From: an uncultured Azospirillum sp.
GTDB lineage: Bacteria; Pseudomonadota; Alphaproteobacteria; Azospirillales; Azospirillaceae
Assembly (NCBI RefSeq): GCF_946480385.1
Contig: NZ_CAMLJP010000110.1
Coordinates: 1-20,371 of the forward strand
Reading direction: 5' to 3'
Length of the DNA: 20,371 nucleotides
The notes beneath the pieces were generated by a model. It saw only the letters and a list, made by a program, of their open reading frames with translations. It had not been told where the DNA came from and made no database searches. The position numbers were made by a program, and so were the translations under genes. Positions 7,509-20,371 of this stretch are shown here, piece by piece; the stretch's first letter is position 1; every line of letters begins with the position of its first letter.

Positions 7509-8333
7509 ATGGGGTTTTCAGTCACCTTCTGGGGCGTGCGCGGCACGATTCCCTGCCCGATGGCCTCGCATCTGGGATTCGGCGGCAACACCGCTTGCGT
7601 CGAAGTGCAGGCGGGAAAGCAGCGAATCATCATCGACGCCGGCACCGGACTGCGGATGCTGGGCCGCAAGTTGCTGGCCGAGGGGGTGACCAGCGCCACG
7701 TTGCTGCTGAGCCATACCCATCTCGACCACATCAGCGGCTTTCCCTTCTTCGCACCGGCCTACACAAAGGGCTTCAGCCTCCGCGTCATCTCCGGTCATC
7801 TCACAGGCAGCCCGGACATCGAATCGGTAATGGCGCGCCAGATGGAACGGCCGCTGTTCCCGGTGCCGTTGCGCACCATGGGCGGCGACCTGAGCTTTCT
7901 TGAGGTGCCGCCCGGCCACAGCTTCAAGCTGGAGGGCGGGGTGCGCATCCACACCGCGGCGCTGAACCACCCGGATGGCGCCACCGGCTACCGGATCGAA
8001 TATCAGGGCCGGTCGGTGGCCTATGTCACCGATACCGAACATGTGCCTGACCATCCCGACCGCAACATCCTGAACCTTGTCGATGGCGTCGATCTGCTGC
8101 TCTACGACTCGACCTATACGGACGAGGAATGGGCGCAGCGCGTCGGCTGGGGCCATTCGACCTGGATGGAGGCGGTGCGGATCGCCCGTGCTGCCCATGT
8201 GAAGACGCTGGGCCTGTTCCATCACGATCCCGACCACGACGATGCCACCATGGAGCGGATCGAGGCCGCGGCGAAGGCGGAGTTCCCGAACTGCTTCGCC
8301 GCGCGCGAGGGAACCACCATCTCCCTCGACTGA
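7509..8333 (+). CDS. MBL-fold metal-dependent hydrolase
   Basis: A 274-residue cytoplasmic metallo-beta-lactamase-fold protein. The metal site is visible: HTHLDH at residues 69-74, then H154 (ALNHPDG), D175 (YVTDTEH) and H238/H239 (LGLFHHDPDH). The N-terminal FWGVRGTIPCP...GGNTACVEV block and IIDAGTGLR mark the branch related to RNase Z/PhnP and cyclic-nucleotide phosphodiesterase-like enzymes (Lactamase_B_2 type). The substrate cannot be told from sequence; a phosphodiester is the best guess from the family. The ATG at 7509 is chosen because SD ggagg at 7497-7501 lies 7 nt before it and the protein then begins at the conserved block. An in-frame ATG at 7428 would add 27 atypical residues. 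The permease gene starts 22 nt downstream, so the two are likely co-transcribed. Confidence 0.9.
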   Translation: MGFSVTFWGVRGTIPCPMASHLGFGGNTACVEVQAGKQRIIIDAGTGLRMLGRKLLAEGVTSATLLLSHTHLDHISGFPFFAPAYTKGFSLRVISGHLTGSPDIESVMARQMERPLFPVPLRTMGGDLSFLEVPPGHSFKLEGGVRIHTAALNHPDGATGYRIEYQGRSVAYVTDTEHVPDHPDRNILNLVDGVDLLLYDSTYTDEEWAQRVGWGHSTWMEAVRIARAAHVKTLGLFHHDPDHDDATMERIEAAAKAEFPNCFAAREGTTISLD

Positions 8334-8355
8334 CCTTCCCTGCGCATTGGGCATT

Positions 8356-9591
8356 ATGACCGCCACCATCCTGATTCTGTTCACCGCCACCTATCTGGGC
8401 ATGGCGCTGGGGCGCTTTCCCGGTCTCAGCATCGACCGCACCGGCATCGCGTTGGTCGCGGCGATCCTGCTTCTGGCGGCCGGTGCGCTCGACACCACGC
8501 AGTTGGTCGCGGCGGTCGATTTCCCGACGATCTTCATCCTGCTGGGGTTGATGATTCTGTCGGCGCAATATGCCGGCAGCGGCTTCTACGACTGGTGCGC
8601 GCTCCGGGTCGCGTGGGCGGCGCGGTCTCCGGCCCGGCTGCTGGCGGTGATCGTGCTGGTCGCCGGAGGCTTGTCGGCGGTTCTGGCAAACGACGTGGTC
8701 GTCTTCGCGATGACGCCGATGCTGTGCCTGGGCTTGCAGGCCCGCAAGCTGGACCCGCGGCCCTACCTGATCGCGCTTGCGGGGGCGGCCAATGCCGGAT
8801 CGGCGGCCACGCTGATCGGCAATCCGCAGAACATTCTGATCGGGCAGATCGGGCATCTCGATTTCTGGCGTTTCTTGGCGGTCTGCGGTGGGCCGGCGCT
8901 TGCCGCCATGGCCATCGTCTACGTCACCGTCTGGCTCGTCTGGCGCGGCCGCTTCGGTATCCCGCAGGACATTGACGGACAGGGGCAGGTGGCGCCGGTG
9001 GCGCTCGACCGCTGGCAGTTGGGCAAGGCCGTGGCGGCGACGCTGGTGCTGCTGGTGCTGTTCACCCGCGATATCCCGCAGGAGCATGCGGTGCTGCTGG
9101 TCGCCGGCGTGATGATGATCAGCCGGCGCATGGCCAGCCGCGACATGCTGGGGATGGTGGACTGGCATCTGCTGGTGCTGTTCGCCGCACTCTTCGCCAT
9201 CAACCACGCGCTGGGGCTGACCGGCATCCCGGCTGCCCTGGTCGGCGACCTGCAGGCAGCAGGATGGCTGCCCGACCGGCTGGCGGTGATGCTGCCGCTG
9301 TCGCTGGCCGGCAGCAACAGCATCGGCAACGTCCCGGCGGTGATCCTGTTGCTGGCGGCCTGGCCGTCGCCACCGGAGGGGGCACTCTACGGTCTGGCGC
9401 TGCTGTCGACCCTGGCCGGCAACCTGCTGCTGCCGGGCAGCCTTGCCAACATCATCGTGGCGGAGCGGGCGGCGGCGGCCGGTGTCCGGCTGGGCTTCGT
9501 CGAGCATGCCCGCTGCGGCGTGCCGATGGCGCTGCTGTCGATGGCGCTGGCGGCGGTCTGGCTGTGGGCCGGCGGCTGGATGGGGCTTTGA
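8356..9591 (+). CDS. Ion-transporter superfamily permease (SLC13/ArsB/CitMHS-like)
   Basis: A 411-residue polytopic membrane protein with about 10-11 hydrophobic segments. The ion-transporter superfamily signatures are present: NDVVVFAMTPMLCLG in the first half followed by the hairpin GNPQNILIGQ (residues ~155-164), and the pseudo-symmetric second-half SLAGSNSIGNVPAVILL and LLPGSLANIIVAERA. These asparagine-containing loops are where related DASS, ArsB and NhaD proteins bind substrate. The substrate (dicarboxylate, sulfate, arsenite or Na+/H+) cannot be assigned. The start at 8356 has no evident SD, but the N-terminus MTATILILFTATYLGMALG makes a proper first membrane segment. It follows the MBL gene by 22 nt. 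Confidence 0.85.
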   Translation: MTATILILFTATYLGMALGRFPGLSIDRTGIALVAAILLLAAGALDTTQLVAAVDFPTIFILLGLMILSAQYAGSGFYDWCALRVAWAARSPARLLAVIVLVAGGLSAVLANDVVVFAMTPMLCLGLQARKLDPRPYLIALAGAANAGSAATLIGNPQNILIGQIGHLDFWRFLAVCGGPALAAMAIVYVTVWLVWRGRFGIPQDIDGQGQVAPVALDRWQLGKAVAATLVLLVLFTRDIPQEHAVLLVAGVMMISRRMASRDMLGMVDWHLLVLFAALFAINHALGLTGIPAALVGDLQAAGWLPDRLAVMLPLSLAGSNSIGNVPAVILLLAAWPSPPEGALYGLALLSTLAGNLLLPGSLANIIVAERAAAAGVRLGFVEHARCGVPMALLSMALAAVWLWAGGWMGL

Positions 9592-9664
9592 CGCGGGCTC
9601 TGTGACTTGTGATCAGCGCGTGACTTTCGGGACTTCAAGCCCCTTCTGCCGGGTGCGACAAATG

Positions 9665-9680
9665 GGGTACTCTGTTTGCG
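9665..9680 (+). promoter_or_regulatory. Possible sigma-54 element before the HD-GYP gene
   Basis: GGGTACTCTGTTTGCG has GG (9666-9667), N10, GC (9678-9679) with TTTGC at -12 and AC after the -24 region. A start near 9690 would leave about 25 nt to the GTG at 9715, with the SD at 9705. The match is weaker than at amtB (no T/C around GG), so this is tentative. Confidence 0.35.
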
Positions 9681-9714
9681 CACCTTTGTAAATGCGCCTG
9701 GGTGGGGGAGCGCT

Positions 9715-10935
9715 GTGGGTCTGGTCGGCCAATTCCTTGAATTTATCGAAAGTGCGCCGAACCAGTCGCTGCGATCGCTCAGCGATCGGGTGCTGCGCAA
9801 ATGTCGCGACCTGACGGGAGCGGAGGCCGGCACGATCTTCATGCTGCGCGGGCAGGGGCGACACCGGCATCTGGAGGCGGTCAGCGCCCAGAACGACGTG
9901 ATCCGCACGAAACCGACGCTGTTCTCCGTGCCGGTAAGCCAAGCCTCCATCGTCGGCTATGTCGCGGCGACCGGCGAGACTCTGCTGCTGGAGGATGCCT
10001 ACGCCATCGCGGAGGATCGCCCTTACAGCTTCAACCCCGCCTTCGACCAGCGCACCGGTTTCCGTACCCGTTCCATTATGGCGTTCGCGCTGAAAGGCTT
10101 CCGCGACCGGCCGATCGGGGTGGTGCAACTGATCAACCGCCGCCCTGTGGAGGGGCCGCCCACCTTCCTGCCCGAACATGAGCAGATGATTGCCCCGGTC
10201 AACCACATCGTCGGCCGGGCGCTGGAGCGGGCAGCGACGCTGGAGCGCCTGACCGAGCGCAACCGCGCCCTGACCCGGGAGCGCCGGCGCGTCGCCGAAC
10301 TTCAGGCGGAGACGGAGCGCGCCTTCATGGTGTCCGTCAATCTGCTGGCCCGCGCCGCCGAGGTGCATGACGAGGACACCGGCAATCACATCCTGCGCGT
10401 CAACGAATACTCCCACGCGCTGGCGAGCTGGGCCGGCTGCAGCCGCGCCTTCTGCAACGAAATCCGCTTTTCCGCCGCCCTGCACGATGTCGGCAAGATG
10501 AGCGTCGATCAGGCGGTGCTGCACAAGAAGGGCCGGCTCGACGACCGTGAACTGGCGGAGATGCGGCGCCATCCGGTGTATGGCCACGATATTCTGGTCG
10601 CGTCGGATCGGCTGAAGATGGCCGCAGAGATCGCGCTGTACCACCACGAACAGTGGGCCGGCACCGGCTATCCGCGTGGCCTGAAAGGGGAGGAAATCCC
10701 GCTGGCCGCCCGCATCGTCGCCATCGCCGACTGCTACGACGCCCTGCGCAGTGCCCGTCCCTACAAGCCGTCATTCAGCCATGAAAAGGCGGTCGACATC
10801 CTGCTGAACGGTGACGACCGCCTGGATCCCAGGGTCCATTTCGATCCGCGCCTGCTCTCGCTGTTCGCCGGCCGCCACGCGGAGTTCGATGCGATCTGGG
10901 AGCGGCTGAAGGATCAGGAGACTCTTGCGGTCTGA
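9715..10935 (+). CDS. GAF domain / HD-GYP cyclic-di-GMP phosphodiesterase-like protein
   Basis: A 406-residue cytoplasmic signalling protein. Residues ~15-170 form a GAF sensor domain (LSDRVLRKCRDLTGAEAGTIFML... GYVAATGETLLLEDAY... GVVQLINRR). Residues ~170-205 are a charged coiled-coil linker, and residues ~208-370 an HD-GYP domain. Its key residues are intact: H225, H257-D258 in LHDVGK, H286 and H291 (HPVYGH), H310-H311-E312, and the GTGYPRG signature at 316-322, so c-di-GMP (or cGAMP-type) hydrolysis is expected. The GAF ligand is unknown. The GTG at 9715 is chosen because of the GGGGAG SD at 9705-9710 (short 4-nt spacer); an in-frame TTG at 9676 would add 13 residues. It converges on the dedA-like gene, sharing the hairpin at 10956-10975. 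Confidence 0.92.
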   Translation: MGLVGQFLEFIESAPNQSLRSLSDRVLRKCRDLTGAEAGTIFMLRGQGRHRHLEAVSAQNDVIRTKPTLFSVPVSQASIVGYVAATGETLLLEDAYAIAEDRPYSFNPAFDQRTGFRTRSIMAFALKGFRDRPIGVVQLINRRPVEGPPTFLPEHEQMIAPVNHIVGRALERAATLERLTERNRALTRERRRVAELQAETERAFMVSVNLLARAAEVHDEDTGNHILRVNEYSHALASWAGCSRAFCNEIRFSAALHDVGKMSVDQAVLHKKGRLDDRELAEMRRHPVYGHDILVASDRLKMAAEIALYHHEQWAGTGYPRGLKGEEIPLAARIVAIADCYDALRSARPYKPSFSHEKAVDILLNGDDRLDPRVHFDPRLLSLFAGRHAEFDAIWERLKDQETLAV

Positions 10936-10975: not shown

Positions 10976-11551
10976 GTTGGTCGCGGCGAGCGCACGGCGG
11001 CGGACCCAGCGGAAGCTCTTGATGCCCAGCCACAGGCCGCCGATGGCGAGGCCGGTCAGCAGCAGGATCTTCGGCCCATCCTCGCCGATGGCGGCGGCGG
11101 CTTCACCGAACAGGTAACCGGCACCGGCAAAGCTCCAGGCCCAGATGCCGGCGGCGATGAAGTTCCAGAACAGGAAACGGGACCACGGCATGCCGGAGGT
11201 GCCGATGGCGACGGACGCGATGTTGCGCACGCCATAGAGGAAGCGGAACACCAGAATGAAGGCGACGCCGTATCTCTCCAGCCAGCTCAGAACCCGGCAT
11301 GCATGGGCATCGGCGGATGGAAAGCGGGCCAGTGCCCTTTTGCCCCAGCGACGGCCCAGCCAGAACCACACCTGATCGCCCATGAAGCTGCCGATCCACA
11401 CCGAGCCGACCAGCCAATACAGATTGACGATGCCAAGTTTGGCGCCCATCCCGCCGAAGATTACAAATGTTTCACCTTCAAAAAAGGCCCAGATAAAGGC
11501 CATCGGGTAAAAGGCATTCCCCCATTCCTGCAACCAAGTGATCCAGTCCAA
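10964..11551 (-). CDS. DedA family (SNARE-associated/VTT domain) membrane protein
   Basis: A 195-residue inner-membrane protein. DedA/VTT proteins act in lipid (e.g. undecaprenyl-phosphate) flipping and membrane homeostasis. Seen: the N-terminal FxEGETFVIFGG block (FFEGETFVIFGGMGA, residues ~23-37), GSFMGDQVWFWLGRRWGK (~53-70), and the family arginine motif FRFLYGVRNIASVAIGTSGMPWSRFLFWN (~101-129), followed by two hydrophobic segments and a basic tail. The frame begins with TTG at 11551, directly preceded by a strong GGAGGGGG Shine-Dalgarno sequence (11554-11561), so a TTG start is likely real. No ATG lies close by except an internal one at residue 17, which would cut into the first conserved region. 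Confidence 0.92.
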   Translation of the reverse strand: MDWITWLQEWGNAFYPMAFIWAFFEGETFVIFGGMGAKLGIVNLYWLVGSVWIGSFMGDQVWFWLGRRWGKRALARFPSADAHACRVLSWLERYGVAFILVFRFLYGVRNIASVAIGTSGMPWSRFLFWNFIAAGIWAWSFAGAGYLFGEAAAAIGEDGPKILLLTGLAIGGLWLGIKSFRWVRRRALAATNPAE

Positions 11552-11726
11552 AGCCCCCTCCGGGAGACGTCTCTTGTGGGTTCGGCGGGCCCGGCGGCGC
11601 TTTATAACCGCTTTATTGTGCGATGCGGCATGCAGAGCGTGGGCTGGAACAGATCATGACATAAAGCCCCGCCGTTTGTCTCGGAAACTTTATTGACTAA
11701 GGGGTCGTCCCAGTGGTGGGGATGGA

Positions 11727-12185
11727 TCAGAAATCGTCGCCGGACAATTCGCCGACGGCCTGCCGCGCGGCGCGTAGAAGGGCGGGGTTGGGCTCCATCG
11801 CGGCCTCCCCATCCTCGCCGTCGGCATCGCTGTGATCTGGGGCGGCGCGGCGTTTCAGCTCGCGGGCCGCCTCGATCAGCAGATGGGCCAGACGCTGGTC
11901 GGGCAGCGCCTGCACCAATGCCCGAAGCTCGGGATTGGACAACGCGGCCGGATCGAAGGCCGGCGGAGGCGGTGGCGGGGCTGGCGGAGCGAGCGGCAGT
12001 GTCGCGACAGTCGCCGCCATTGCCGCCGCCCTCGGCAGAGGGGCGGCCTCCCGCACCACATCGACCGCGACCTGGGCGGCCATCGTCGAAGACGTGGCAG
12101 CCGTCGCGGTAGCCCGCACCCGGCGCGGCTTGCGCGCCGGTTCGGTCTCCGGCAGATCGTCGAACAGAAGCCGTTGGACGCTCAT
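11727..12185 (-). CDS. Hypothetical protein, possibly damage-inducible
   Basis: Not recognised. A 152-residue protein with the N-terminus MSVQRLLFDDLPETEPARKPRR, a low-complexity Ala/Val/Pro middle with a run of prolines (about residues 70-76), and a more structured C-terminal helix region LSNPELRALVQALPDQRLAHLLIEAARELKRR, ending in an acidic tail LSGDDF. No signal peptide or membrane segment. The start at 12185 is chosen over an in-frame ATG at 12263 because the promoter and operator-like array at 12258-12318 would otherwise overlap coding sequence, and because MSVQRLLFDD looks like a native start; the SD is weak. The coding call rests on amino-acid composition and the open frame. Other frames here give Arg/Gly-rich nonsense. 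Confidence 0.65.
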   Translation of the reverse strand: MSVQRLLFDDLPETEPARKPRRVRATATAATSSTMAAQVAVDVVREAAPLPRAAAMAATVATLPLAPPAPPPPPPAFDPAALSNPELRALVQALPDQRLAHLLIEAARELKRRAAPDHSDADGEDGEAAMEPNPALLRAARQAVGELSGDDF

Positions 12186-12257
12186 CGCTGCGGTTGCCCC
12201 CTGCGCTCCACCAATACCCACCCACACCGGCGGCGCTTCCCGCACCGGCCATTCGCT

Positions 12258-12318
12258 GTTCACCCGCAGTTTGCGGTGTGTTCTCTTTTCATTCTAGGAA
12301 GAGTGCCGGGTTTGTCGA
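12258..12318 (-). promoter_or_regulatory. Sigma-70-type promoter with LexA-like half-site array
   Basis: On the minus strand TCGACA (12313-12318), a 16-nt spacer and TAGAAT (12291-12296) form a good -35/-10 pair (5 of 6 each), with a start near 12284. Overlapping the -10 and start are four half-sites spaced exactly 11 bp apart: GAAT (12291-12294), GAAC (12280-12283), AAAC (12269-12272) and GAAC (12258-12261). Alphaproteobacterial LexA recognises GAAC-N7-GAAC direct repeats. Each adjacent pair here differs from that by one base. The position is right for repression of the gene ending at 11727. Confidence 0.5.
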
Positions 12319-12332
12319 GCGGATTCTGGCGG

Positions 12333-12794
12333 CTATGCCCGACAGCCGTCCCCGGAAGCATGCTGGAGAGCCGTCGCCTCCAGGAAGCGTTCCGGTCGCA
12401 GCACCCGCGTTTCACCGGCCCGACGCACCGACAGGAGCTGCCGGTCGACCGTCACCAGCCAGGGCACCGATCCACCGACCGCCGCGGCCAGGAACATGTC
12501 ATCCTCCGGATCGCGGCACAGGCGTCCGACCGCGGCGGGGGCGACCAGCGTCGTCTCCTCCCGGATGCGATCCAGGAAGGCGCGGCGATCCGCCGCGGGG
12601 GTATAGCGGTCGAAGGTCGGCCGCATCAGCACCTCTTCCAACTCCGCCAGCGTCTCGGTGCTGCCGACCAGGCCCCGCTCGGCGCGCACCCGCTCCACGC
12701 AGCGGCGGATCGCGTCATGCCGGCGTGCCGCGGCATCACCCAGCAGCGCATAGGCAACCAGGATGTTGGTGTCGAGCACGGCCCGGATCGGCAT
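12333..12794 (-). CDS. PIN-domain protein (PIN_3, putative toxin component)
   Basis: A 153-residue PIN-fold putative ribonuclease of the COG1569/PIN_3 type. Seen: the N-terminal RAVLDTNILVAYALLG with the first catalytic Asp (residue 7), STETLAELEEVLMRPTFDRY with the conserved Glu, and CRDPEDDMFLAAAVGGSVPWLVTVDRQLLSV with the later Asp cluster, so the acidic metal site looks complete. The ATG at 12794 gives the usual N-terminus directly before the first beta strand, although it lacks a good SD; upstream in-frame ATGs at 12845 and 12938 would add unrelated residues. No antitoxin gene is adjacent: the upstream 179 nt are a divergent promoter region shared with the response regulator. It may be a stand-alone RNase. 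Confidence 0.85.
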   Translation of the reverse strand: MPIRAVLDTNILVAYALLGDAAARRHDAIRRCVERVRAERGLVGSTETLAELEEVLMRPTFDRYTPAADRRAFLDRIREETTLVAPAAVGRLCRDPEDDMFLAAAVGGSVPWLVTVDRQLLSVRRAGETRVLRPERFLEATALQHASGDGCRA

Positions 12795-12973
12795 GGGAGC
12801 CGAAGGGCGAACCGTGTCGGGGGCGGCAGTGTTGCGGCTGAGCATTGATATATTGCTGGACCATTGCGGTTGAAGTTGTCGGGGCCGATGCGAAGCGTCT
12901 GTTGTGGGCAGGGGCGCTTTGCGGTAAGAAGCCCGCAAGGTGTGAACGGAACCTTTAGGACGGAAATATCGGC

Positions 12974-13333
12974 ATGACCAGCATCCTCGTCGTCGACGAC
13001 AGCCGACTGGCGCGCAACATGGTCTCCAGCGTCATCGCCTCTCTGCGGCCTGACTGGACCATCGTCACCGCAGCCAGCGGCGAAGAGGGGCTGGAGATCG
13101 TCGGCGAGGTGCCGCCGGTCGCCGCCATCGTCGATTACAACATGCCGGGCATGGACGGGCTGCAGCTGGCCGAGCGGCTGAAGGAGCGCTTCGTCGGCCT
13201 GCCCATCGGCCTGCTGACCGCCAACGTTCAGGACGCGCTGAAGCGCAAGGCCGAGGCGCTGGGCGTCCGTTTCATCGCCAAGCCGATCACCTCGGACAAG
13301 ATCCGCGACTTCCTCGCCGCGGCCGGGCAGTGA
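12974..13333 (+). CDS. Single-domain response regulator (CheY-like)
   Basis: A 119-residue receiver domain with no output domain. The acidic pocket (DD at residues 8-9), phospho-acceptor Asp54 (AIVDYNMPGMDG), Thr82 (LLTAN) and Lys103 (IAKP) are all present, so it should be phosphorylated. It ends with a GTGA overlap with the CheC gene, so the pair is co-translated. This means a phosphorylated receiver next to its likely phosphatase. No histidine kinase is in the window, so the input is unknown. The start ATG at 12974 is preceded by a weak purine-rich aggacgga at 12957-12964. Confidence 0.93.
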   Translation: MTSILVVDDSRLARNMVSSVIASLRPDWTIVTAASGEEGLEIVGEVPPVAAIVDYNMPGMDGLQLAERLKERFVGLPIGLLTANVQDALKRKAEALGVRFIAKPITSDKIRDFLAAAGQ

Positions 13334-13980
13334 CGCCGATGGCCGACTCCACATCCGCCGGACCGGCATCGGAAGACCCGCTTCGTCTCGACGCCGACGA
13401 GGCCGACGCCATTGCCGAGCTGTTCAACATCGGCATGGGCGAACCGGCCGCCGCGCTCAGCTCCATGCTGGGCGAGGAGGTGCATCTGTCGGTGCCGTCC
13501 TTCGCGGTGTCGACCCGCGCCCGCATCACCAGCGAGGTGGGCGGCGAACTGGAGGGCGATCAGCCGGTCTGCGCCGTGCGTGGCGCCTTCACCGGCCCCT
13601 TCACCGGCGAAGCGATGCTGATCTTCCCGGAACGCGGCACGCTGGCCCTGGTCGGCCGGCTCGTTCCCGTCGATCCCGCCGTCGAGGCGCCGGGCGAGAT
13701 GGAGCAGGATGCGCTGACCGAGATCGGCAACATCATCCTGAACGGCTGCCTCGCCAGCCTGTCCAACCTGATCGGCGGCGAGTTGTCGGGCGCGGTTCCG
13801 GGCTATGGCACCGGCGCGCCGGCGGCGGTCATCGGGTCCGCCACCGACCCGGTGCTGTTCGTGCGCATCGACATGGCGCTGGCCGCCGGCGATGCCAGCG
13901 GTCACGCGCTGTTCCTGCTGGACATCGCCTCGCTGGACGCCTTCCGCGAGGCGATCCGGCGGGCTTTGGCGGGGCTCTGA
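13330..13980 (+). CDS. cheC: CheC family chemotaxis-type phosphatase
   Basis: A 216-residue protein of the CheC/CheX/FliY family, which dephosphorylates CheY-P. Two copies of the catalytic pattern [DS]-x3-E-x2-N-x22-P are seen: D26/E30/N33...P56 and D127/E131/N134...P157. That makes it CheC-type with both sites intact. The GTG at 13330 overlaps the preceding stop (GTGA) and suits translational coupling; an ATG at 13339, three codons in, is equally possible. It lies outside any visible che operon. Together with the response regulator it forms a compact two-gene signalling unit, perhaps buffering phosphate flow for an unlinked kinase. Confidence 0.92.
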   Translation: MTPMADSTSAGPASEDPLRLDADEADAIAELFNIGMGEPAAALSSMLGEEVHLSVPSFAVSTRARITSEVGGELEGDQPVCAVRGAFTGPFTGEAMLIFPERGTLALVGRLVPVDPAVEAPGEMEQDALTEIGNIILNGCLASLSNLIGGELSGAVPGYGTGAPAAVIGSATDPVLFVRIDMALAAGDASGHALFLLDIASLDAFREAIRRALAGL

Positions 13981-13994
13981 TAGAGAGGTTGAGG

Positions 13995-14137
13995 GGAGGG
14001 GGAGGCTTTTGCCCCCTCCCCACCCCTCCCCCACCTTCGGTGGGAGAGGGAACTCCGCCGCTTCACGATTAAATTACGTTGCAAGCGTCCCACCCCTCCC
14101 CCGCCAAAGGCGGGGGAGGGGTGGGGAGGGGGCAAAA
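13995..14137. repeat. Nested palindromic C/G-rich repeat between cheC and glyS
   Basis: A 26-nt perfect inverted repeat has arms 14007-14032 and 14112-14137. Each half also folds on itself. The left half pairs 14025-14036 with 14040-14051 around a ttc loop (one mismatch). The right half has a perfect 17-bp stem (14089-14105 / 14109-14125) with loop aaa. The two hairpins are thus inverted copies of one motif, about 50 nt apart around an AT-richer centre (cgattaaattacgtt). It lies between convergent cheC and glyS and probably ends transcription from both sides. The purine/pyrimidine theme is shared with the hairpin at 762-790, suggesting a dispersed REP-like element. Confidence 0.8.
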
Positions 14138-14141
14138 ACCT

Positions 14142-16229
14142 TTACCCCTCGATCTTCGAGAAGTCGGCCACCGCGTTCAGCGTCGTCCGGATCTGCGTCA
14201 GCAAGCGCAGGCGGTTGGCGCGCAGGTCCTTGTCCTCCGCATTCACCGTCACCTCGTCGAAGAAGGCGTCCACCGGGCCGCGCAGCTTTGCGAGCGCCGC
14301 CATGGTGCCGGTGAAGTCCTCTTTGGCAATATAAGGTTCTGCAACATCGTTGACTTCTCCCAGCGCACTGTAAAGAGCCTGCTCTTCGGCAGTGACGAGC
14401 TGAGAAATGTCAATTTGACCTTCGTAGCTGCGACCGTCCTTCTTCTCCTCGATGCGGACGATGTTGGAGGCACGCTTATAGGCCGCCAGCAGATTGGCGC
14501 CCTCATCGGACCCGACGAAGTCCTGCAGAGCCTTCACTCGTGCCAGCAGCCGCACCAGATCGTCCTCGCCGCCGAGGGCGAACACGGCATCGACCAGATC
14601 GTGACGGACGCCCTGCTCGCGCAGCACCACCTTCAGGCGGTCGGCGACGAAGGACATCAGGTCGCCGCCGACGCTGCCGGCCGGGGCGAAGCCGCTGACC
14701 GTATAAGCACCGTGGGCGGCGGTGAAGACCTCGGACAGCTTCACCCGCAGCCCGTTCTCCAGCACCAGCCGGATCACGCCCAGCGCGGCACGGCGCAGCG
14801 CGTAGGGGTCCTTCGAACCCGTCGGCTTTTCGTCGATGGCGAAGAAGCCGACCAGCGTGTCGATCTTGTCGGCCAGCGCCACCGCCACCGAAACCGGCGC
14901 AGTCGGGCAGGAATCCGACGGACCCAGCGGCTTGTAGTGGTCGGCGATGGCGTTGGCGACGTCGGCGCTCTCGCCCTGGCCCAGCGCATAGTAGCGGCCC
15001 ATGATCCCCTGAACCTCGGGGAACTCGCCGACCACCTCGGTCACCAGATCGGCCTTGCACAGCAGGGCGGCGCGGCTGGCGGCATCGCTGTCGGCGCCGA
15101 TGGCGCGGGCGATCTCGGCGGCCAGCAGCTGCACGCGGGTGACCTTCTCGGCCACCGTGCCCAGCTTGGCATGGAAGGTGATCTTCTCCAGCGCCGGGAC
15201 GCGGGCTTCCAGCTTGGTCTTGCGGTCCTGGTCCCAGAAGAACTTGGCGTCGGACAGGCGGGCGCGAAGAACGCGCTCGTTGCCGGCGACCACGGCCTTG
15301 CCGCCGTCCAGCGTCTCGGTGTTCGCCACGACGATGAAGCGCGGGGCCATCCGGCCCTCGGCGTCCAGCACGGCGAAATACTTCTGGTGGGTGCGCATCG
15401 AGGTGATGAGCACCTCCGACGGCACGTCCATGAAGCTCTCGTCGATGTTGCCCATCAGCACGACCGGCCATTCGACGAGGCCGGCGACCTCCTCCAGCAG
15501 CGCGTCATCGGGCGACAGGGTTAGGCCCTGGGCCTTGGCCAGAGCCTCGGCGTCGGCCTTGATCTTGGCCTTGCGCTCCTCGCGGTCGAGCACGACCTTG
15601 GCGGCGCGCAGCTTCTCCTTGTAGTCGGCGAAGCTTTCCACCGTGAAGGCGTCGGGCGCCAGGAAGCGGTGGCCGCGGGTGCCGTTGCCGAAAGCGATGC
15701 GGCCCTGGGTGCCGCCGATGTCATAGCCGCCGTCGAGAACGCGCCCGCCGAACAGAGCGATGATCGAGTGCAGCGGACGGACCCAGCGCACGGTGCCGGT
15801 GCCCCAGCGCATCGACTTCGGCCAGGGCAGCTCCGCCATGGCGGCGGGGATGATCTCCGCCAGCACTTCGGCGGTTTCGCGCCCCTTTTTCTCGGTCACC
15901 GCGAAGTAGAAGACGCCCTTGCCGGTGTCGCGCTGCTCGCACTGGTCGAGGCTGTCGAGGCCGGCCGACTTCAGGAAGCCGGCGACCGCCTGCTCCGGTG
16001 AGCCGACGCGCGGACCCTTCTTCTCCTCGCGCACGTCGGCGGTGCGCTCCGGCAGACCGTCGACCACCAGCGCCAGACGGCGCGGGGTGGAGTGGGCTTC
16101 GGCCGTGGCGAAGGTCAGGCCGTTCGCCGCCAGCTTGTCGGTAACGAGGCGCTTCAGGTCGTCGGCGGCCCGCGCCTGCATGCGGGCGGGGATTTCTTCG
16201 GAGAAGAATTCGATCAGGAGTTCGGTCAT
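14142..16229 (-). CDS. glyS: Glycyl-tRNA synthetase beta subunit
   Basis: A 695-residue tRNA-binding subunit of the bacterial alpha2-beta2 glycyl-tRNA synthetase (E. coli 689). Seen: the N-terminal [17 protein letters not shown] block, [85 protein letters not shown], and the HD-type [10 protein letters not shown]...[15 protein letters not shown] region, with a C-terminal DALR-type anticodon-binding part. The ATG at 16229 lies 4 nt after the glyQ stop, so expression is coupled; an open frame continuing further upstream overlaps glyQ and is not needed. It ends just before the palindromic repeat. Confidence 0.97.
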
Positions 16230-16233
16230 TGGA

Positions 16234-17130
16234 TTACTTCGCCCCCGTCCAGACTTCGCAGCAGGCCTTGGCCAGCGCGCGCACGCGGCCGATATAGGCG
16301 GCGCGCTCGACAACGCTGATCACGCCGCGGGCGTCCAGCAGGTTGAACAGATGCGACGCCTTGATGCACTGGTCATAGGCGGGCAGCGCAAGGTTCTGCG
16401 CCACCAGCGCCTGGCACTCGGCCTCGGCGTCTTTGAAATGCTGGAGCAGCATGTCGGTGTTGGCGAACTCGAAGTTATGCTTCGAGTATTCGACCTCGGC
16501 GCGCTTGAACACGTCGCCGTACTTCACACCCTGGCCGTTGAAGTCCAGGTCATAGACATTCTCGACGCCCTGCACATACATGGCGAGGCGTTCCAGCCCA
16601 TAGGTCAGCTCGACCGCGACCGGATCGCATTCGATGCCGCCGACCTGCTGAAAATAGGTGTACTGCGTCACTTCCATGCCGTCGCACCACACTTCCCAGC
16701 CCAGGCCCCAGGCGCCCAGAGTCGGGCTTTCCCAGTCGTCCTCGACGAAGCGGATGTCATGCAGCGCCGGGTCGATGCCGATGGCGCGCAGGCTGTCCAG
16801 GTAAAGCTCCTGCGCGTTGGCCGGCGAGGGCTTCATGATGACCTGGTACTGGTAATAGTGCTGCAGGCGGTTCGGGTTCTCGCCATAGCGGCCGTCCTTC
16901 GGCCGGCGCGACGGCTGGACATAGGCCGCCTTCCAGGCATCGGGACCCAGCGCGCGCAGCGTGGTCGCCGGGTGGAAGGTGCCGGCGCCGACCTCCATGT
17001 CGTAGGGCTGCAGGATGACGCAACCCTGCTCCGACCAGAACTGGTGGAGCTTGAGGATCAGGGCCTGGAACGACAGGCCGCGGCGGTCGGCGGAGTTTCC
17101 GCCGTCGGAAGTCCCGATCTGGGAGGCCAT
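16234..17130 (-). CDS. glyQ: Glycyl-tRNA synthetase alpha subunit
   Basis: A 298-residue class II catalytic subunit (E. coli 303) that forms glycyl-adenylate and charges tRNA-Gly with GlyS. The very conserved stretches [94 protein letters not shown] and [15 protein letters not shown] are all intact. The ATG at 17130 gives a 17-residue lead before the conserved [14 protein letters not shown]; the SD is weak. A sigma-70-type promoter is seen at 17167-17195. glyS follows after 4 nt. Confidence 0.98.
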
Positions 17131-17166
17131 GGACGGTCCACAATAGAAATGTTGAAAACGCGCCGC

Positions 17167-17195
17167 ACGATAGGCGGGTGCCACCGCCAAATCAA
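17167..17195 (-). promoter_or_regulatory. Putative sigma-70 promoter for glyQS
   Basis: On the minus strand TTGATT (17190-17195), a 17-nt spacer and TATCGT (17167-17172) match the -35/-10 consensus at 4 of 6 each. The start would be near 17160, about 30 nt before the glyQ ATG. It lies in the 94-nt gap after the zinc-ribbon gene. Confidence 0.45.
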
Positions 17196-17224
17196 GCCGC
17201 AGCGCGGAAAGGCCGCTCCCGCGG

Positions 17225-17518
17225 TCAGCGGCCGTAGGGGCAGGCGGGACGGCCGCAGGACACGGCGGAGCGGGGGGCGACATAGGCGCCGCATTCCGGA
17301 CATTTCTCCATGTCCTCCGCCTCCACGGCGTAGGAGCCGGCGTCGCGCGACGAGGCGCCGGGTGCGGCATCGCGCCGTCCGGATTGATTGGGGCCGTCCT
17401 GGCGGCGGGCGGCGCTGCGGGCGCGGCCGATCTCCTGCACGCGGTTGACCCAGCGCCAGCCGTACCAGACCGCGCCGATCACCAGCGCAAGGAGAATTAT
17501 CTTGGACAAGGATATCAT
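17225..17518 (-). CDS. PP0621-like small membrane protein with C-terminal zinc ribbon
   Basis: A 97-residue protein. Residues ~3-20 ([19 protein letters not shown]) form one membrane anchor, followed by a basic, low-complexity linker. A C-terminal cysteine motif ([11 protein letters not shown]...[11 protein letters not shown]) offers four or five cysteines for zinc. An N-terminal helix plus a CxxC-G-x-x-V/L tail matches the PP0621-type family found in many proteobacteria; function unknown. Several in-frame starts exist. The ATG at 17518 is preferred because it begins directly at the membrane helix, while one at 17548 adds ten residues. It lies upstream of glyQS on the same strand. Confidence 0.75.
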
Positions 17519-17600
17519 CGCCGGCAGCCCGTCTGATCTCCCGGGCATTCAGCCCGCGGGCGACGGGAAGTCAAGAGAATAGGGCGGAAACGGAAAGGGC

Positions 17601-17630
17601 GGGACCGCCGCAAGGGGAGGCGGCGGTCCC
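17601..17630 (-). terminator. Hairpin after the exported-protein gene
   Basis: Perfect 11-bp stem gggaccgccgc (17601-17611) / gcggcggtccc (17620-17630) with an 8-nt loop. It begins 12 nt after the minus-strand stop at 17642. Downstream on the minus strand is cgccctttccgttt, a weak pyrimidine tract rather than a pure T-run. Confidence 0.65.
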
Positions 17631-17641
17631 ATCCGGCCGCT

Positions 17642-18091
17642 TTACTTGGCGGCGACGGCCGGTTGCCAGCTGTATACCGGAACGACACCGTAGGTGCGGG
17701 TCATGTCGGCCTGCCGCACGCTGCGCACCAGCACCTCCGTACCAGTGGCGACGCGGATGTCGGTGCCGAGCAAGCCGCAATCCTCCGGCACGATGTTGAT
17801 GCACTGGGTGGCGTCGACCCGGGTCAGCACGATGTCGAAGGGCAGGCCGTTGCGGGCATAGACGCCGAGCAGGCCGGGGGCGGAGGTCGCCGTACGCAGC
17901 GTCACCACCCCGGCCGGCAGCGCGCGGTCGCTGGGCGCGGTCGGACGCTGGTTGTGGCTTTCGTCCCAAATGGGCTGGCCCGAGGAATCCAGCTTGGACT
18001 GGGCTGCGGCACCGCCGCTGAAGCCGGTGAGGGCCAGGGTCGCGCCGCTCATTGCCGTCAGGGCCAGAACCGCCATCCGAAACCGCGACAT
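17642..18091 (-). CDS. Hypothetical exported protein
   Basis: A 149-residue protein of unrecognised family. The N-terminus MSRFRMAVLALTAMSGATLALTG is a typical Sec signal peptide (basic n-region, hydrophobic core), with a likely signal peptidase site near FSGGAAAQ-S (residues ~25-31), so the mature part is periplasmic or secreted. The mature protein has two cysteines (CINIVPEDC), which could form a disulfide, and an alternating pattern compatible with beta strands. The ATG at 18091 has SD GGAG at 18099-18102 (spacer 7). An open frame extends further upstream but has no support. A possible -10 (TATAGT, 18156-18161) and an inverted repeat at 18182-18207 lie upstream. The function cannot be inferred. 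Confidence 0.8.
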   Translation of the reverse strand: MSRFRMAVLALTAMSGATLALTGFSGGAAAQSKLDSSGQPIWDESHNQRPTAPSDRALPAGVVTLRTATSAPGLLGVYARNGLPFDIVLTRVDATQCINIVPEDCGLLGTDIRVATGTEVLVRSVRQADMTRTYGVVPVYSWQPAVAAK

Positions 18092-18417
18092 CGTCGTACT
18101 CCGTTCTTGTGTCCGTTCTTCTTGTCCCCACGGTCGCGGGACCGGGAGGCGCGCTACTATATGGGATGCCGGGCGCGCCGCCACCCTAGCCCAGAACGCC
18201 TAGGGTGTTCCGCTTAGATGAAGGGGTAGTACCGACAGTTCGCTCTGGACGGACGGCTGATGCCTGTGAATGATGATTCGTCCATGCGTTGTTTACCACG
18301 GGGCCGCTATGTGTCTTCGGTTGTCGATTGTCCTCGATCTGCGCGCGACGCCAAGGGGCCTCGCAAAGGATATTCCCGGCTTGGGTTTGCCGTTTTTCCG
18401 GGGTTTTCTGGTCGGCG
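18092..18417. other. Divergent intergenic region (326 nt)
   Basis: This lies between the divergent exported-protein gene (-) and the GNAT gene (+). The left third holds the candidate promoter and palindrome (18156-18207). In the rest I see no tRNA, no strong hairpin, and no convincing promoter for the GNAT gene. An open frame runs in from 18289 in phase with the GNAT gene, but its sequence is Cys/Arg-rich and unlike the family. Confidence 0.5.
18156..18207 (-). promoter_or_regulatory. Possible promoter with operator-like palindrome for the exported-protein gene
   Basis: On the minus strand TATAGT (18156-18161) is a good -10; the -35 at 17-nt spacing (GTGGCG, 18179-18184) is poor, 3 of 6. Directly at the -35 edge lies a perfect 8-bp inverted repeat, CACCCTAG-N10-CTAGGGTG (18182-18207), the size and spacing of a dimeric regulator site. 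A weak -35 next to a palindrome is typical of an activator-dependent promoter, but no regulator is identified. Confidence 0.35.
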
Positions 18418-18999
18418 ATGGTGGCATCCATGGGTGAACCGGTGCTGGAAACCGCGCGTCTGATCCTTCGGCCTACGCATGCGGAGGATTTCGACTCCTG
18501 GGCTGCGATGATGACCGATCCCCAGGCGACCGTCTTCATCGGCGGCCTGCAATCGCGTTCCGTGGCATGGCGGGGGTTCGTCGGCATGGCCGGTGCCTGG
18601 GCGATCCAGGGCTTCGGCATGTTTTCGGTGATCGAGAAGGACAGCGGCCGGTGGGTTGGGCGGGTCGGCCCATGGGTGCCCGAAGGCTGGCCGGTGACGG
18701 AGGTTGGCTGGGTTCTTCCACGCGAATGCTGGGGGCGCGGCTATGCGATGGAGAGTGCCGTCGCGGCCATCGACTGGGTGTTCGAGCATCTCGGCTGGAC
18801 CGAGGTCGTCCACTCGATCCACCCGGACAATGCGGCCTCGCAGGCCGTGGCGCGCCGTCTTGGTTCCCGAATCCGCGGGTCGGGTCTTCTGCCTGAACCG
18901 ATGGTCCCGGCCGAGGCCGATTTCTGGCGCCAGACCCGGGAGGAGTGGTTCGGCGGCGGCCGCACTCAAGCAGTCCGGTCGTTGCAGAGTCGGGCCTGA
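18418..18999 (+). CDS. GNAT family N-acetyltransferase (RimJ/RimL-like)
   Basis: A 193-residue cytoplasmic acetyl-CoA-dependent transferase. Seen: LETARLILRPTHAEDFDSWAAMMTDP at the N-terminus (the classical RimJ/RimL opening), the GFGMFSVIEKDSGRWVGRVGPW strand region, EVGWVLPRECWGRGYAMESAVAAIDWVFEHLGW containing the acetyl-CoA loop motif RECWGRGYA, and HPDNAASQAVARRLG near residues ~134-148. The acceptor may be a ribosomal protein N-terminus or a small amine; it cannot be resolved. Start: ATG 18418 or 18430 (MGEPVLETARL), both with weak ribosome-binding sites; an in-frame ATG at 18289 is unlikely. A sigma-54-like element for the next gene begins 9 nt after its stop. Confidence 0.9.
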   Translation: MVASMGEPVLETARLILRPTHAEDFDSWAAMMTDPQATVFIGGLQSRSVAWRGFVGMAGAWAIQGFGMFSVIEKDSGRWVGRVGPWVPEGWPVTEVGWVLPRECWGRGYAMESAVAAIDWVFEHLGWTEVVHSIHPDNAASQAVARRLGSRIRGSGLLPEPMVPAEADFWRQTREEWFGGGRTQAVRSLQSRA

Positions 19000-19007
19000 T
19001 GATTCGA

Positions 19008-19023
19008 TGGCTTGACGGTAGCA
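19008..19023 (+). promoter_or_regulatory. Possible sigma-54 element before the first Nif11-like gene
   Basis: TGGCTTGACGGTAGCA has TGGC at -24 and GC at -12 with exact GG-N10-GC spacing (19009-19010, 19021-19022), but -12 reads TAGCA instead of TTGCA. Start near 19034 would give a leader of about 95 nt. No NifA-type TGT-N10-ACA site was found upstream. Confidence 0.3.
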
Positions 19024-19129
19024 ATATTCCCATCGAGCGCAACTTTATAACTTGTTCGAGGCTGAGGCTTCACAGTACCGTCGTCATGTCCGCTGGAACT
19101 GGCCGGCATGAATGATGGAGGCGATGAAC

Positions 19130-19594
19130 ATGGCCGACTCGACGGCTCTCGATCTCTTGAAGTCCCTCGCTACCGACCATGGCTTTCGCAGCCAGTTGCG
19201 ATCCCTCGACGCACGGGGAAAGCGCGATCTTCTCCAGCGTTGCGGCTTCGGAACGCTGACGGCGTCCGACATGCGCACGGCTGCTGCAAACGTCTTCGGC
19301 ACGCAAGCCGAGGCTGCTCCGGCCGTTGCTTCCAACCTCGCTTCGAGCGCAGGCATGATTGCCGAAGTTGCCGCGAGCGCGTCTGCGATCGAGACGACTG
19401 ATGGCCGTGCGCTGACTCCGCGGCTTGTCGCTGCCAGTGCGTCGCTGATCGAGACGGTCGACGGTCGTGCGCTGGTGCCGCGGCATGTCGCCGCCAGCGC
19501 GTCGGCGATTGAAACGGTCGATGCCCATATGATGGCGTCGTTCACCGCAAATTTCAGCCGTGCGTCTGCCTCTGCTTACCAGAAGGCCGCCTGA
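19130..19594 (+). CDS. Nif11-like leader peptide protein with 20-residue repeats (putative RiPP precursor)
   Basis: A 154-residue protein. Residues 1-57 resemble the Nif11 leader domain: ALDLLKSLATDHGFRSQL, then RDLLQRCGF, then LTASDMRTAA (helical, L..D..F...L...GF..LT..D pattern). Residues 58-81 are an Ala/Ser spacer. Residues 82-134 hold two full copies and one partial copy of a 20-residue repeat built on ASAS-x-IET-x-DGRAL-x-PR-x-VA. A final ASASAY lies near the C-terminus. The only Cys is in the leader (residue 38), so thioether-type modification of the core is unlikely; the repeats are rich in Ser, Thr, Asp and Glu. Start 19130 has SD ggagg at 19117-19121 (spacer 8). The next gene is a paralogue in the leader only. 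Nif11-type leaders are known from proteobacterial RiPP precursors; the maturation enzyme is not visible, so a RiPP role is inference. Confidence 0.8.
   Translation: MADSTALDLLKSLATDHGFRSQLRSLDARGKRDLLQRCGFGTLTASDMRTAAANVFGTQAEAAPAVASNLASSAGMIAEVAASASAIETTDGRALTPRLVAASASLIETVDGRALVPRHVAASASAIETVDAHMMASFTANFSRASASAYQKAA
19373..19528 (+). repeat. 60-bp tandem coding repeat in the first Nif11-like gene
   Basis: Units at 19373-19432 and 19433-19492, then a partial one from 19493 to about 19528, have an exact 60-bp period. Units 1 and 2 share 45 of 60 bases and 16 of 20 residues. Conserved across units are ASAS, IET, D and, in the first two, GRAL and PR. Several base differences are silent, so the protein repeat is probably under selection rather than a fresh slippage product. 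Confidence 0.9.
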
Positions 19595-19630
19595 ATCCAG
19601 GAGCGGAAATGCGAGGCTGACTGGAGCAAT

Positions 19631-19662
19631 GCCGAGTCGCTCCACTCGGCCCGCCGCTTTTG
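19631..19662 (+). terminator. Terminator-like hairpin after the first Nif11-like gene
   Basis: Perfect 7-bp stem gccgagt (19631-19637) / actcggc (19644-19650), loop cgctcc, then ccgccgctttt. It lies 36 nt after the stop and suggests the two Nif11-like genes are separate transcription units. Confidence 0.55.
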
Positions 19663-19884
19663 GCTTTGTTCATTGCGGCTACCGATTCGTCTTTGCATGG
19701 TGCAATTGATATCCGACGCAGTCTGATTGATTCGCCGTGTTTTCTTTGTGAGTCGATACCATTTTCGGCGCCGTTTCGATGCCGGGGCGTCACCTGACAC
19801 GCCAGCGCCCCAACATTAAATTCACGCGCGAATCATCGGAAGCCGTCGGATTTTGGTAGAAACTGACTCGATTGCCTATGCTAT

Positions 19885-19900
19885 TGGTTTAGCTGTTGCT
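19885..19900 (+). promoter_or_regulatory. Putative sigma-54 element before the second Nif11-like gene
   Basis: TGGTTTAGCTGTTGCT has GG (19886-19887), N10, GC (19898-19899), with a perfect TTGCT at -12. The -24 is TGGT rather than TGGC. A start near 19911 would leave about 38 nt to the ATG. A competing sigma-70-like pair lies just upstream (19853-19882). Confidence 0.4.
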
Positions 19901-19948
19901 CAACGATAGTAACAATCGAATTGGCAGTCCCGTTGCAGGAGGGGCCAA

Positions 19949-20371
19949 ATGGCCAGCGAACAGGCTCTTGACCTTATAAAGCGTCTCGCCACTGATGGCG
20001 GATTTAGGGATCAGTTGAACACGTCGGATATTGCCGGCAAGCAAGCGCTTCTTGCGCAGGGCGGTTTCGCCGGAATAACGGCGGAGGATGTGCGGTCTGC
20101 TGCGGCCGAGGCATTCGGCAGCCTGTCAGACGAGACGGGTGTCGCAACCGTCGCTGAATCGATCGCGAATGCGGCGTCGGCTGTTTCGCTGGCCGGCGTT
20201 GCGCTTCCGTCCTTTGCCGGCGCGGGCATGGCCGGCCACGCCGCCGCAGGTGCTGCCGGTACGGCCGGGTTCGCCGCCGCCGGCGCTCCGTCGCCCGCGG
20301 CCAGTGCCGCCGGTATGGCCGGGTTTGCTGCGGCCGGCGCTCCGTCTCCTGCGGCCAGTGCCGCCGGTATG
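19949..20371 (+). CDS. Second Nif11-like leader protein with Ala/Gly/Pro/Ser repeats (partial, runs off window)
   Basis: 141 codons are open to the window edge with no stop. The ATG has a strong SD (aggagggg, 19937-19944). Residues 1-57 match the leader of the preceding gene at 32 of 57 positions (ALDLIKRLATDGGFRDQL, GGFAGITAEDVRSAAAEAFG). Residues 58-100 form a spacer, and from residue 102 an 18-residue repeat, AAG-x-AGFAAAGAPSPAAS, occurs twice with a third copy beginning at the edge. There is no cysteine in the visible part. The C-terminal region is unlike that of the first gene. It could be a multi-core peptide precursor, or a repetitive structural or surface peptide that only shares the leader for export or processing. 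The end and any enzyme genes lie beyond the window. Confidence 0.8.
   Translation, partial: MASEQALDLIKRLATDGGFRDQLNTSDIAGKQALLAQGGFAGITAEDVRSAAAEAFGSLSDETGVATVAESIANAASAVSLAGVALPSFAGAGMAGHAAAGAAGTAGFAAAGAPSPAASAAGMAGFAAAGAPSPAASAAGM
20252..20371 (+). repeat. 54-bp tandem coding repeat in the second Nif11-like gene
   Basis: Units at 20252-20305 and 20306-20359, with a third starting at 20360 and cut by the window edge. Units 1 and 2 share 47 of 54 bases and 17 of 18 residues. A degenerate earlier copy (AGMAGHAAAGA) precedes them from about 20225. The copy number beyond the edge is unknown. Confidence 0.9.

Follow-up and report, generated by a model that had tools for sequence, protein, structure and literature searches.

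Two adjacent genes at the end of a 20,371-nucleotide stretch of DNA from an uncultured Azospirillum sp. (the whole of this stretch is here called the window) are probably multi-core precursors of a family of peptides thioamidated by YcaO and TfuA, as judged by comparison with the same locus in relatives; the thioamide, its positions and its function are what we infer. The original prediction, made from the window alone, that these genes encode RiPP precursors in which a conserved leader is followed by repeated cores, is well supported, in that ycaO, tfuA, thiS and moeB follow in relatives, and the tails change whilst the leader and the enzymes stay. The suggestion that cores free of Cys might define a new class has fared less well: Cys is indeed absent from 34 of 39 tails, but the enzymes put the peptides with the known YcaO-TfuA thioamidated kind. 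One enzyme set, conserved within a clade of Azospirillum, appears to accept at least eight repeat cores, two at once in 14/24 genomes, which would make it a natural test bed for YcaO-TfuA site choice and would provide multi-copy thioamide peptides, mostly free of Cys, from outside Actinobacteria. The available text of PMC8120280 assigns to Actinobacteria every YcaO-TfuA product known by 2021.

The two precursor genes of the window

The features of the two genes, all on the plus strand, are the following:

19117-19121, plus strand: GGAGG, ribosome-binding-site-like, ahead of gene 1
19130-19594, plus strand: gene 1, with ATG at 19130 and stop codon at 19592-19594, 154 aa
19130-19300, plus strand: leader-like region of gene 1, 57 residues, from identity to the gene 2 leader and included in alignment A1
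19301-19591, plus strand: tail of gene 1, 20-residue repeats of the IET-x-DGRAL type, with the repeat array at 19370-19521
19938-19942, plus strand: GGAGG, ribosome-binding-site-like, ahead of gene 2
19949 to beyond 20371, plus strand: gene 2, with ATG at 19949, 141 aa in the window, frame open at the window end
19949-20119, plus strand: leader-like region of gene 2, 57 residues, predicted helical (BLASTP, alignment A1, orthologue model)
20156-20179, plus strand: conserved ESIANAAS box of gene 2, residues 70-77, before the repeats (pattern search)
20250-20371, plus strand: start of the 18-residue repeat array of gene 2 (AGF-AAAGAPSPAAS type), truncated at the end of the window

Gene 1 has a second in-frame ATG at 19112. 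The two proteins are identical at 32 of the first 57 residues and thereafter match at 8 of 84 in register, and BLASTP of one against the other aligned the leader alone (32/58, E 1e-18). Tandem Repeats Finder reported a 60-base unit in gene 1 (2.5 copies, 78% matches, 19370-19521) and a 54-base unit in gene 2 (2.3 copies, 89% matches, 20250-20371), so that each array is represented in the window by two to three copies only, with gene 2 cut by the window end. Positions, BLASTP and repeat finding thus confirm what had been noticed at the outset, namely two adjacent genes with a common leader and unrelated repeated tails. The gene 1 tail resembles tails in four other loci (L001, L002, L052 and L053). 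That this combination of leader and repeats goes beyond chance is argued by the presence of the leader profile in 24 of 45 Azospirillum genomes, and by the finding that repeat copies differ mostly at the third codon position.

The leader had been assigned to the Nif11 type, and this assignment holds as a likeness but not as a membership. In searches with PF07862 and TIGR03798, gene 1 of the window gave no match to either model and the gene 2 leader gave matches below the cut-offs (14.1 of 23.8 bits and 16.2 of 32.3 bits, respectively). The complete lack of a Nif11 hit, which would have told against the original prediction, is confined to gene 1. Amongst 29 leaders searched at E <= 1, 25 match PF07862 and 22 match TIGR03798, whilst none passes the curated cut-off of PF07862, TIGR03798 or TIGR04509; the best scores are 23.5 of 23.8 bits, and hence within 0.3 bits, for PF07862 (L054), 22.3 of 32.3 for TIGR03798 (L047) and 22.1 of 34 for TIGR04509. 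Alignment with hhalign to 19 Nif11-type leaders, comprising one from Rhizobium leguminosarum (L040) and 18 of 26 TIGR03798 matches (16 of them over the cut-off; eight opposite-strand loci were omitted), gave a probability of 50% and an E of 1.6e-4, collinear over 51 columns. A GG cleavage site of the ELSDxxLDxVxGG type is found in 0/39 precursors by a pattern that was verified on one true Nif11 leader. A fair wording on these sequence tests is therefore that the leader is Nif11-like without belonging to the family as the curated cut-offs define it. One genome has a tandem row of five Nif11 leader genes that do score over the TIGR03798 cut-off (G013:C4:543172-545050; L081, L090, L094, L097 and L100), on another contig than its YcaO-TfuA cassette.

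The probable thioamidation cassette in relatives

The maturation enzymes were read from relatives, the window itself being without them. The locus of A. oryzae A2P (L001) agrees with the window at 93% across some 5 kb and continues past the window end, with the gene order precursor, precursor, ycaO, tfuA, thiS and a rhodanese-ThiF (moeB) gene. The orthologue of gene 2 is here 459 aa long, and the YcaO gene starts about 140 bases after it; YcaO (454 aa, 11524-12888 of the locus) and TfuA (473 aa, 12885-14306) are encoded by overlapping genes and score 249 bits on Pfam PF02624 and 140 bits on PF07812, respectively. The ThiS-like protein has 92 aa, a Gly-Gly C-terminal end and a Pfam score of 24.7 bits, and the rhodanese-ThiF protein (385 aa) exceeds the cut-off of the NCBIfam MoeB model (582 vs 449 bits). 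For both YcaO and TfuA the best NCBIfam model is one for McrA thioamidation, at scores below the equivalog cut-offs: TIGR03266 for YcaO (210.8 bits, cut-off 365), with the SagD model at 119.8, and NF033432 for TfuA (185.5 bits, cut-off 235.2). When compared with solved structures, TfuA has 6xp8 as its sole match, and YcaO matches 6pe3 (MJ1094) at 95.3 bits, almost tied with TruD at 94.2 and with MusD and LynD near. We take TruD, MusD and LynD to be azoline-forming cyanobactin enzymes, and because of this near tie the thioamide assignment rests on TfuA and ThiS together with the NCBIfam ranking. YcaO and TfuA frames are found together in 24/24 cassette loci. By homology, then, ycaO, tfuA, the ThiS sulfur carrier and the rhodanese-MoeB protein are a complete set for backbone thioamidation.

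The surroundings of the cassette were scanned with Pfam. Upstream lie genes for an acetyltransferase, glycyl-tRNA synthetase subunits, CheX- and response-regulator-like proteins, and PIN, VTT membrane and HD-domain proteins; downstream lie two-component proteins, usually on the opposite strand; and two small neighbour proteins are without a Pfam match. Amongst the neighbours scanned none matched a peptidase, an ABC exporter, a dehydrogenase, a Lan domain, or an ATP-grasp, amidinotransferase or heme-oxygenase-like protein, and no cyclisation genes were matched. The expectation that maturation and export genes would lie nearby was borne out for maturation, by YcaO, TfuA, ThiS and MoeB in relatives, and not for a peptidase or ABC exporter. 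In A2P the cassette faces, tail-to-tail, a group of minus-strand genes (15772-19615 of the locus) that encode a response regulator, a PAS histidine kinase and a hybrid of response regulator, PAS and kinase. The PAS histidine kinase gene is present in the same 24/45 Azospirillum genomes as the leader, and since it is confined to them, this two-component system may control the cassette or respond to its product.

Distribution and co-occurrence

The leader profile built from alignment A1 has 38 matches in 24 of 45 Azospirillum genomes, 14 of which carry two and 10 carry one. The cassette-type YcaO (E below 1e-200, 72-100% identity) is found in the same 24/45 genomes; weaker matches at 40-43% identity represent a different YcaO of the genus, and of the 82 genomes searched in the family, the 37 outside Azospirillum yielded no match to the cassette-type YcaO at 1e-80. 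In 15/24 genomes ycaO is preceded on its contig by a leader gene, and in the other nine a contig end or gap falls inside the repeat array. A protein search of a database recovered two relatives, both under the name 'hypothetical protein, partial', and genome mining would tend to miss such precursors on account of both the broken arrays and these names. The cassette MoeB is present in 22/24 genomes, the housekeeping MoeB in 45/45. The kinase side is common to 22 of the 24 loci: in G014 the kinase is on another contig, and the contig fetched for G030 ends before the kinase side. G029 and G044 keep the kinase side, but upstream of the cassette they have frames that the other loci do not share.

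In a tree of the housekeeping MoeB, a single gene tree, 23 of the positive genomes fall into one group and G029 lies elsewhere. The co-occurrence therefore counts as about two independent events, and the distribution is that of a clade trait with one probable transfer, not of 24 independent events. In a sample drawn evenly from the class, the leader profile matched 2 of 385 genomes, both of them in Azospirillum, with nothing outside the genus; in the order it matched 25/82 genomes at E <= 0.001, these being the 24 already known and one weak match. The latter is a 78-aa frame outside the genus but in the same order (G050:C54:19372-19509, 21.9 bits).

Anatomy of the precursors

Leader and enzymes are conserved across the 24 genomes, and in alignment A1, which comprises 29 leaders, 11 columns are invariant, amongst them A6, L9, A14-T15-D16, F19-R20, L23, L35 and G39. 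A second box resembling ESIATAAS, at residues 70-80 just before the repeats, was found by pattern in 24 of 39 precursors, the remaining 15 being without it; the same pattern picks out exactly one box-bearing precursor per genome in 23 genomes, and exactly one in the window. In one further genome (G026, locus L070) the box has the variant form ESVAFAAS; this precursor was missed by the leader pattern, was read separately and stands outside the 39. Where two precursors and ycaO lie on one contig, the box-bearing precursor is the nearer to ycaO, gene 2 type being assigned by the box pattern itself. A structural model of the gene 2 orthologue in L053 predicts helices at residues 2-15, 17-25, 28-37, 45-57 and 65-83, with pLDDT of 76-86 over residues 1-50 and 62 over 51-60, and no structure beyond the last helix (pLDDT about 30). 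The model of TfuA was of poor quality, and no leader-binding domain was identified from it.

The 39 precursors are 89 to 505 aa long, several of them cut by contig ends, the longest relative being that of 505 aa; their tails reach about 425 residues. The tails contain Ser or Thr, and median Ala content is 45% in box-bearing (gene 2) tails and 32% in the others, in counts that retain what follows the assembly gaps in L074 and L075. Sorted by keyword, the box-bearing tails make up seven types (9, 6, 3, 2, 2, 1 and 1 precursors), and the G026 type brings the number to at least eight different Ala-rich repeat units, as told apart by eye and keyword from the units; the keyword placed L045 in the PATAN type although its unit differs. 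In 14/24 genomes there is a second precursor, the repeat of which is a different one. Repeat periods are often multiples of five residues (5, 10, 15, 20 and 25), with 9, 18, 29 and 44 as exceptions. The lowest Ala share, 17%, is that of a gene 2 homologue in L047 (9740-11119, minus strand), whose tail is Arg/Leu-rich with a pN/pS of 6.1, as if frame shifted early in the array; this looks like either a real frame shift or a sequencing error.

Selection on the repeat copies

Successive repeat copies in 38 precursors differ at 145, 138 and 866 sites in codon positions 1, 2 and 3, respectively, counts that are not independent, as arrays of related species share history. The L047 homologue was left out of the pN/pS count as its tail looks frame-shifted, and a few of the 38 tails are short or hardly repeated and may contribute nothing. 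With windows chosen by DNA identity and all six frames counted, pN/pS between copies was 0.128 when read in the coding frame, against 3.87 and 3.40 for the two remaining forward frames; in the antisense frames it was 1.89, 3.57 and 0.17 (0.173), the low last value probably arising because synonymous positions there fall on wobble positions of the true frame. A first run, in which windows were picked by amino-acid likeness, was replaced as its selection was biased. The excess of third-position differences indicates that the repeat copies are held to the same peptide and, as far as sequence can tell, that this peptide is under selection. It also bears on the idea that the repeats arose as satellite expansions at the level of the DNA and have no function as peptides. 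Tandem arrays that vary in copy number and repeat units swapped between species are what such expansions would give, but the strong third-position excess in the coding frame largely refutes them, and the frames stay open over hundreds of codons; this is the least probable of the explanations considered here, and hardly credible.

Proposed mechanism and alternative explanations

It has been shown that YcaO enzymes activate a backbone amide with ATP and that for thioamides external sulfide is the nucleophile (PMC5589413, available text), and thioamide-forming YcaOs are described as tending to use a thiocarboxylated ThiS homologue together with the hydrolase TfuA (PMC13063428; PMC8939145, available text). 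In the thiostreptamide core, according to the available text of PMC8153245, thioamidation is iterative, needs both proteins and takes place at Val-Met and Ala-Ile sites. The Azospirillum cassette contains each of these parts. In the proposed pathway, the MoeB-rhodanese protein would load sulfur on the Gly-Gly end of the ThiS protein as a thiocarboxylate, which TfuA would hydrolyse, passing the sulfide to YcaO; leader-guided YcaO, using ATP, would then convert backbone amides in each repeat to thioamides. Since the scan of the neighbourhood matched neither a dedicated protease nor an exporter, the cores are proposed to be freed by general cell proteases. One precursor would in this way give many copies of a short thioamidated peptide, and with a single enzyme set the proteins of genes 1 and 2 would yield two distinct products.

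The whole array might instead be thioamidated and left uncut, as a single poly-thioamide polypeptide of up to about 425 residues, acting as a material or as a soft-metal (copper) binding polymer whose sequence is free to vary between species if Ala-rich and repetitive; this would explain the absent nearby protease, exporter and cleavage site as well as clade-wide retention with core replacement, and we regard it as unlikely, if worth keeping in mind. Lengths of up to 505 aa, the absent GG site, the lack of a matched exporter and a median of 45% Ala in gene 2 tails would suit unmodified Ala-rich low-complexity structural or surface proteins, with the adjacent YcaO-TfuA modifying something else. 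The gene order and the identical genome set for leader and YcaO speak against such proteins, as do the attachment of one leader type to two different tails within one genome and a tail that is modelled without a fold, and we consider that they offer a rather improbable account of the locus.

The chemistry could also differ, with YcaO forming azolines or azoles from core Ser/Thr to give a linear azol(in)e peptide. Ser or Thr is available in the tails, and TruD, MusD and LynD score close to the archaeal YcaO amongst solved structures; set against this are the preference of YcaO for the thioamidation model over that for SagD (210.8 vs 119.8 bits), the presence of TfuA and a sulfur-carrier system, and the lack of a matched dehydrogenase amongst the neighbours scanned, all of which leave azol(in)e formation very improbable.

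Comparison with known systems

The closest parallels to multi-core precursors with thioamidated repeats are found in systems that share parts of the cassette. Thiovarsolins likewise combine YcaO-TfuA with an imperfect-repeat precursor (VarA), the repeat number of which varies amongst family members (PMC6511847, available text). That family has none to five repeats, whereas Azospirillum tails reach about 425 residues, and even the thiovarsolin precursor with five repeats is much shorter than the Azospirillum precursors; the producing cluster adds ATP-grasp, amidinotransferase, heme-oxygenase-like and MFS genes (PMC6511847, available text). The Azospirillum loci differ in turn by the second precursor in 14/24 genomes and by built-in ThiS/MoeB genes. 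Nif11-like precursors in TfuA clusters have been described before, in part with MoeB amongst the added genes of a figure (PMC8120280, available text). The R. leguminosarum locus (L040) likewise has a Nif11-like precursor with YcaO, TfuA, MoaD/ThiS and MoeB, but that precursor is 77 aa long (65.8 bits on TIGR03798), too short for such arrays, and the cluster has an extra second YcaO, a methyltransferase and LanM. Thioamitides such as thiostreptamide S4 also undergo iterative YcaO/TfuA thioamidation, in a core with Ala, Ile, Val and Met amongst its residues (PMC8153245, available text); they have a single short core and a Cys-derived macrocycle, whereas the Azospirillum tails are mostly Cys-free. 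In the archaeal McrA system ycaO and tfuA overlap too and are sometimes near thiF, moaD or moeB, but what is modified in that system is a glycine within a folded enzyme (PMC5589413, available text).

A literature search of partial coverage found no description of the Azospirillum family, and the papers retrieved for Azospirillum together with YcaO carry neither word in title or abstract. Set against this partially covered literature, the very long arrays, the two precursors with different repeats and one leader type, the conserved box and the core replacement within one clade are apparently new, in that we have not seen them described.

TfuA is not confined to the present cassette, a TfuA match of some kind being found in 44/45 Azospirillum genomes, including 20 of the 21 without it. 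In most Azospirillum genomes the best TfuA match is a short-TfuA pair of the type seen in L038, where a different YcaO-TfuA pair (7652-9991) has a short TfuA, ribbon-helix-helix genes nearby and, upstream, a 65-aa ORF (P0009) without a Pfam match. Two genomes carry third TfuA/YcaO loci (L063 in G022 and L065 in G004) that are only distantly related to the others.
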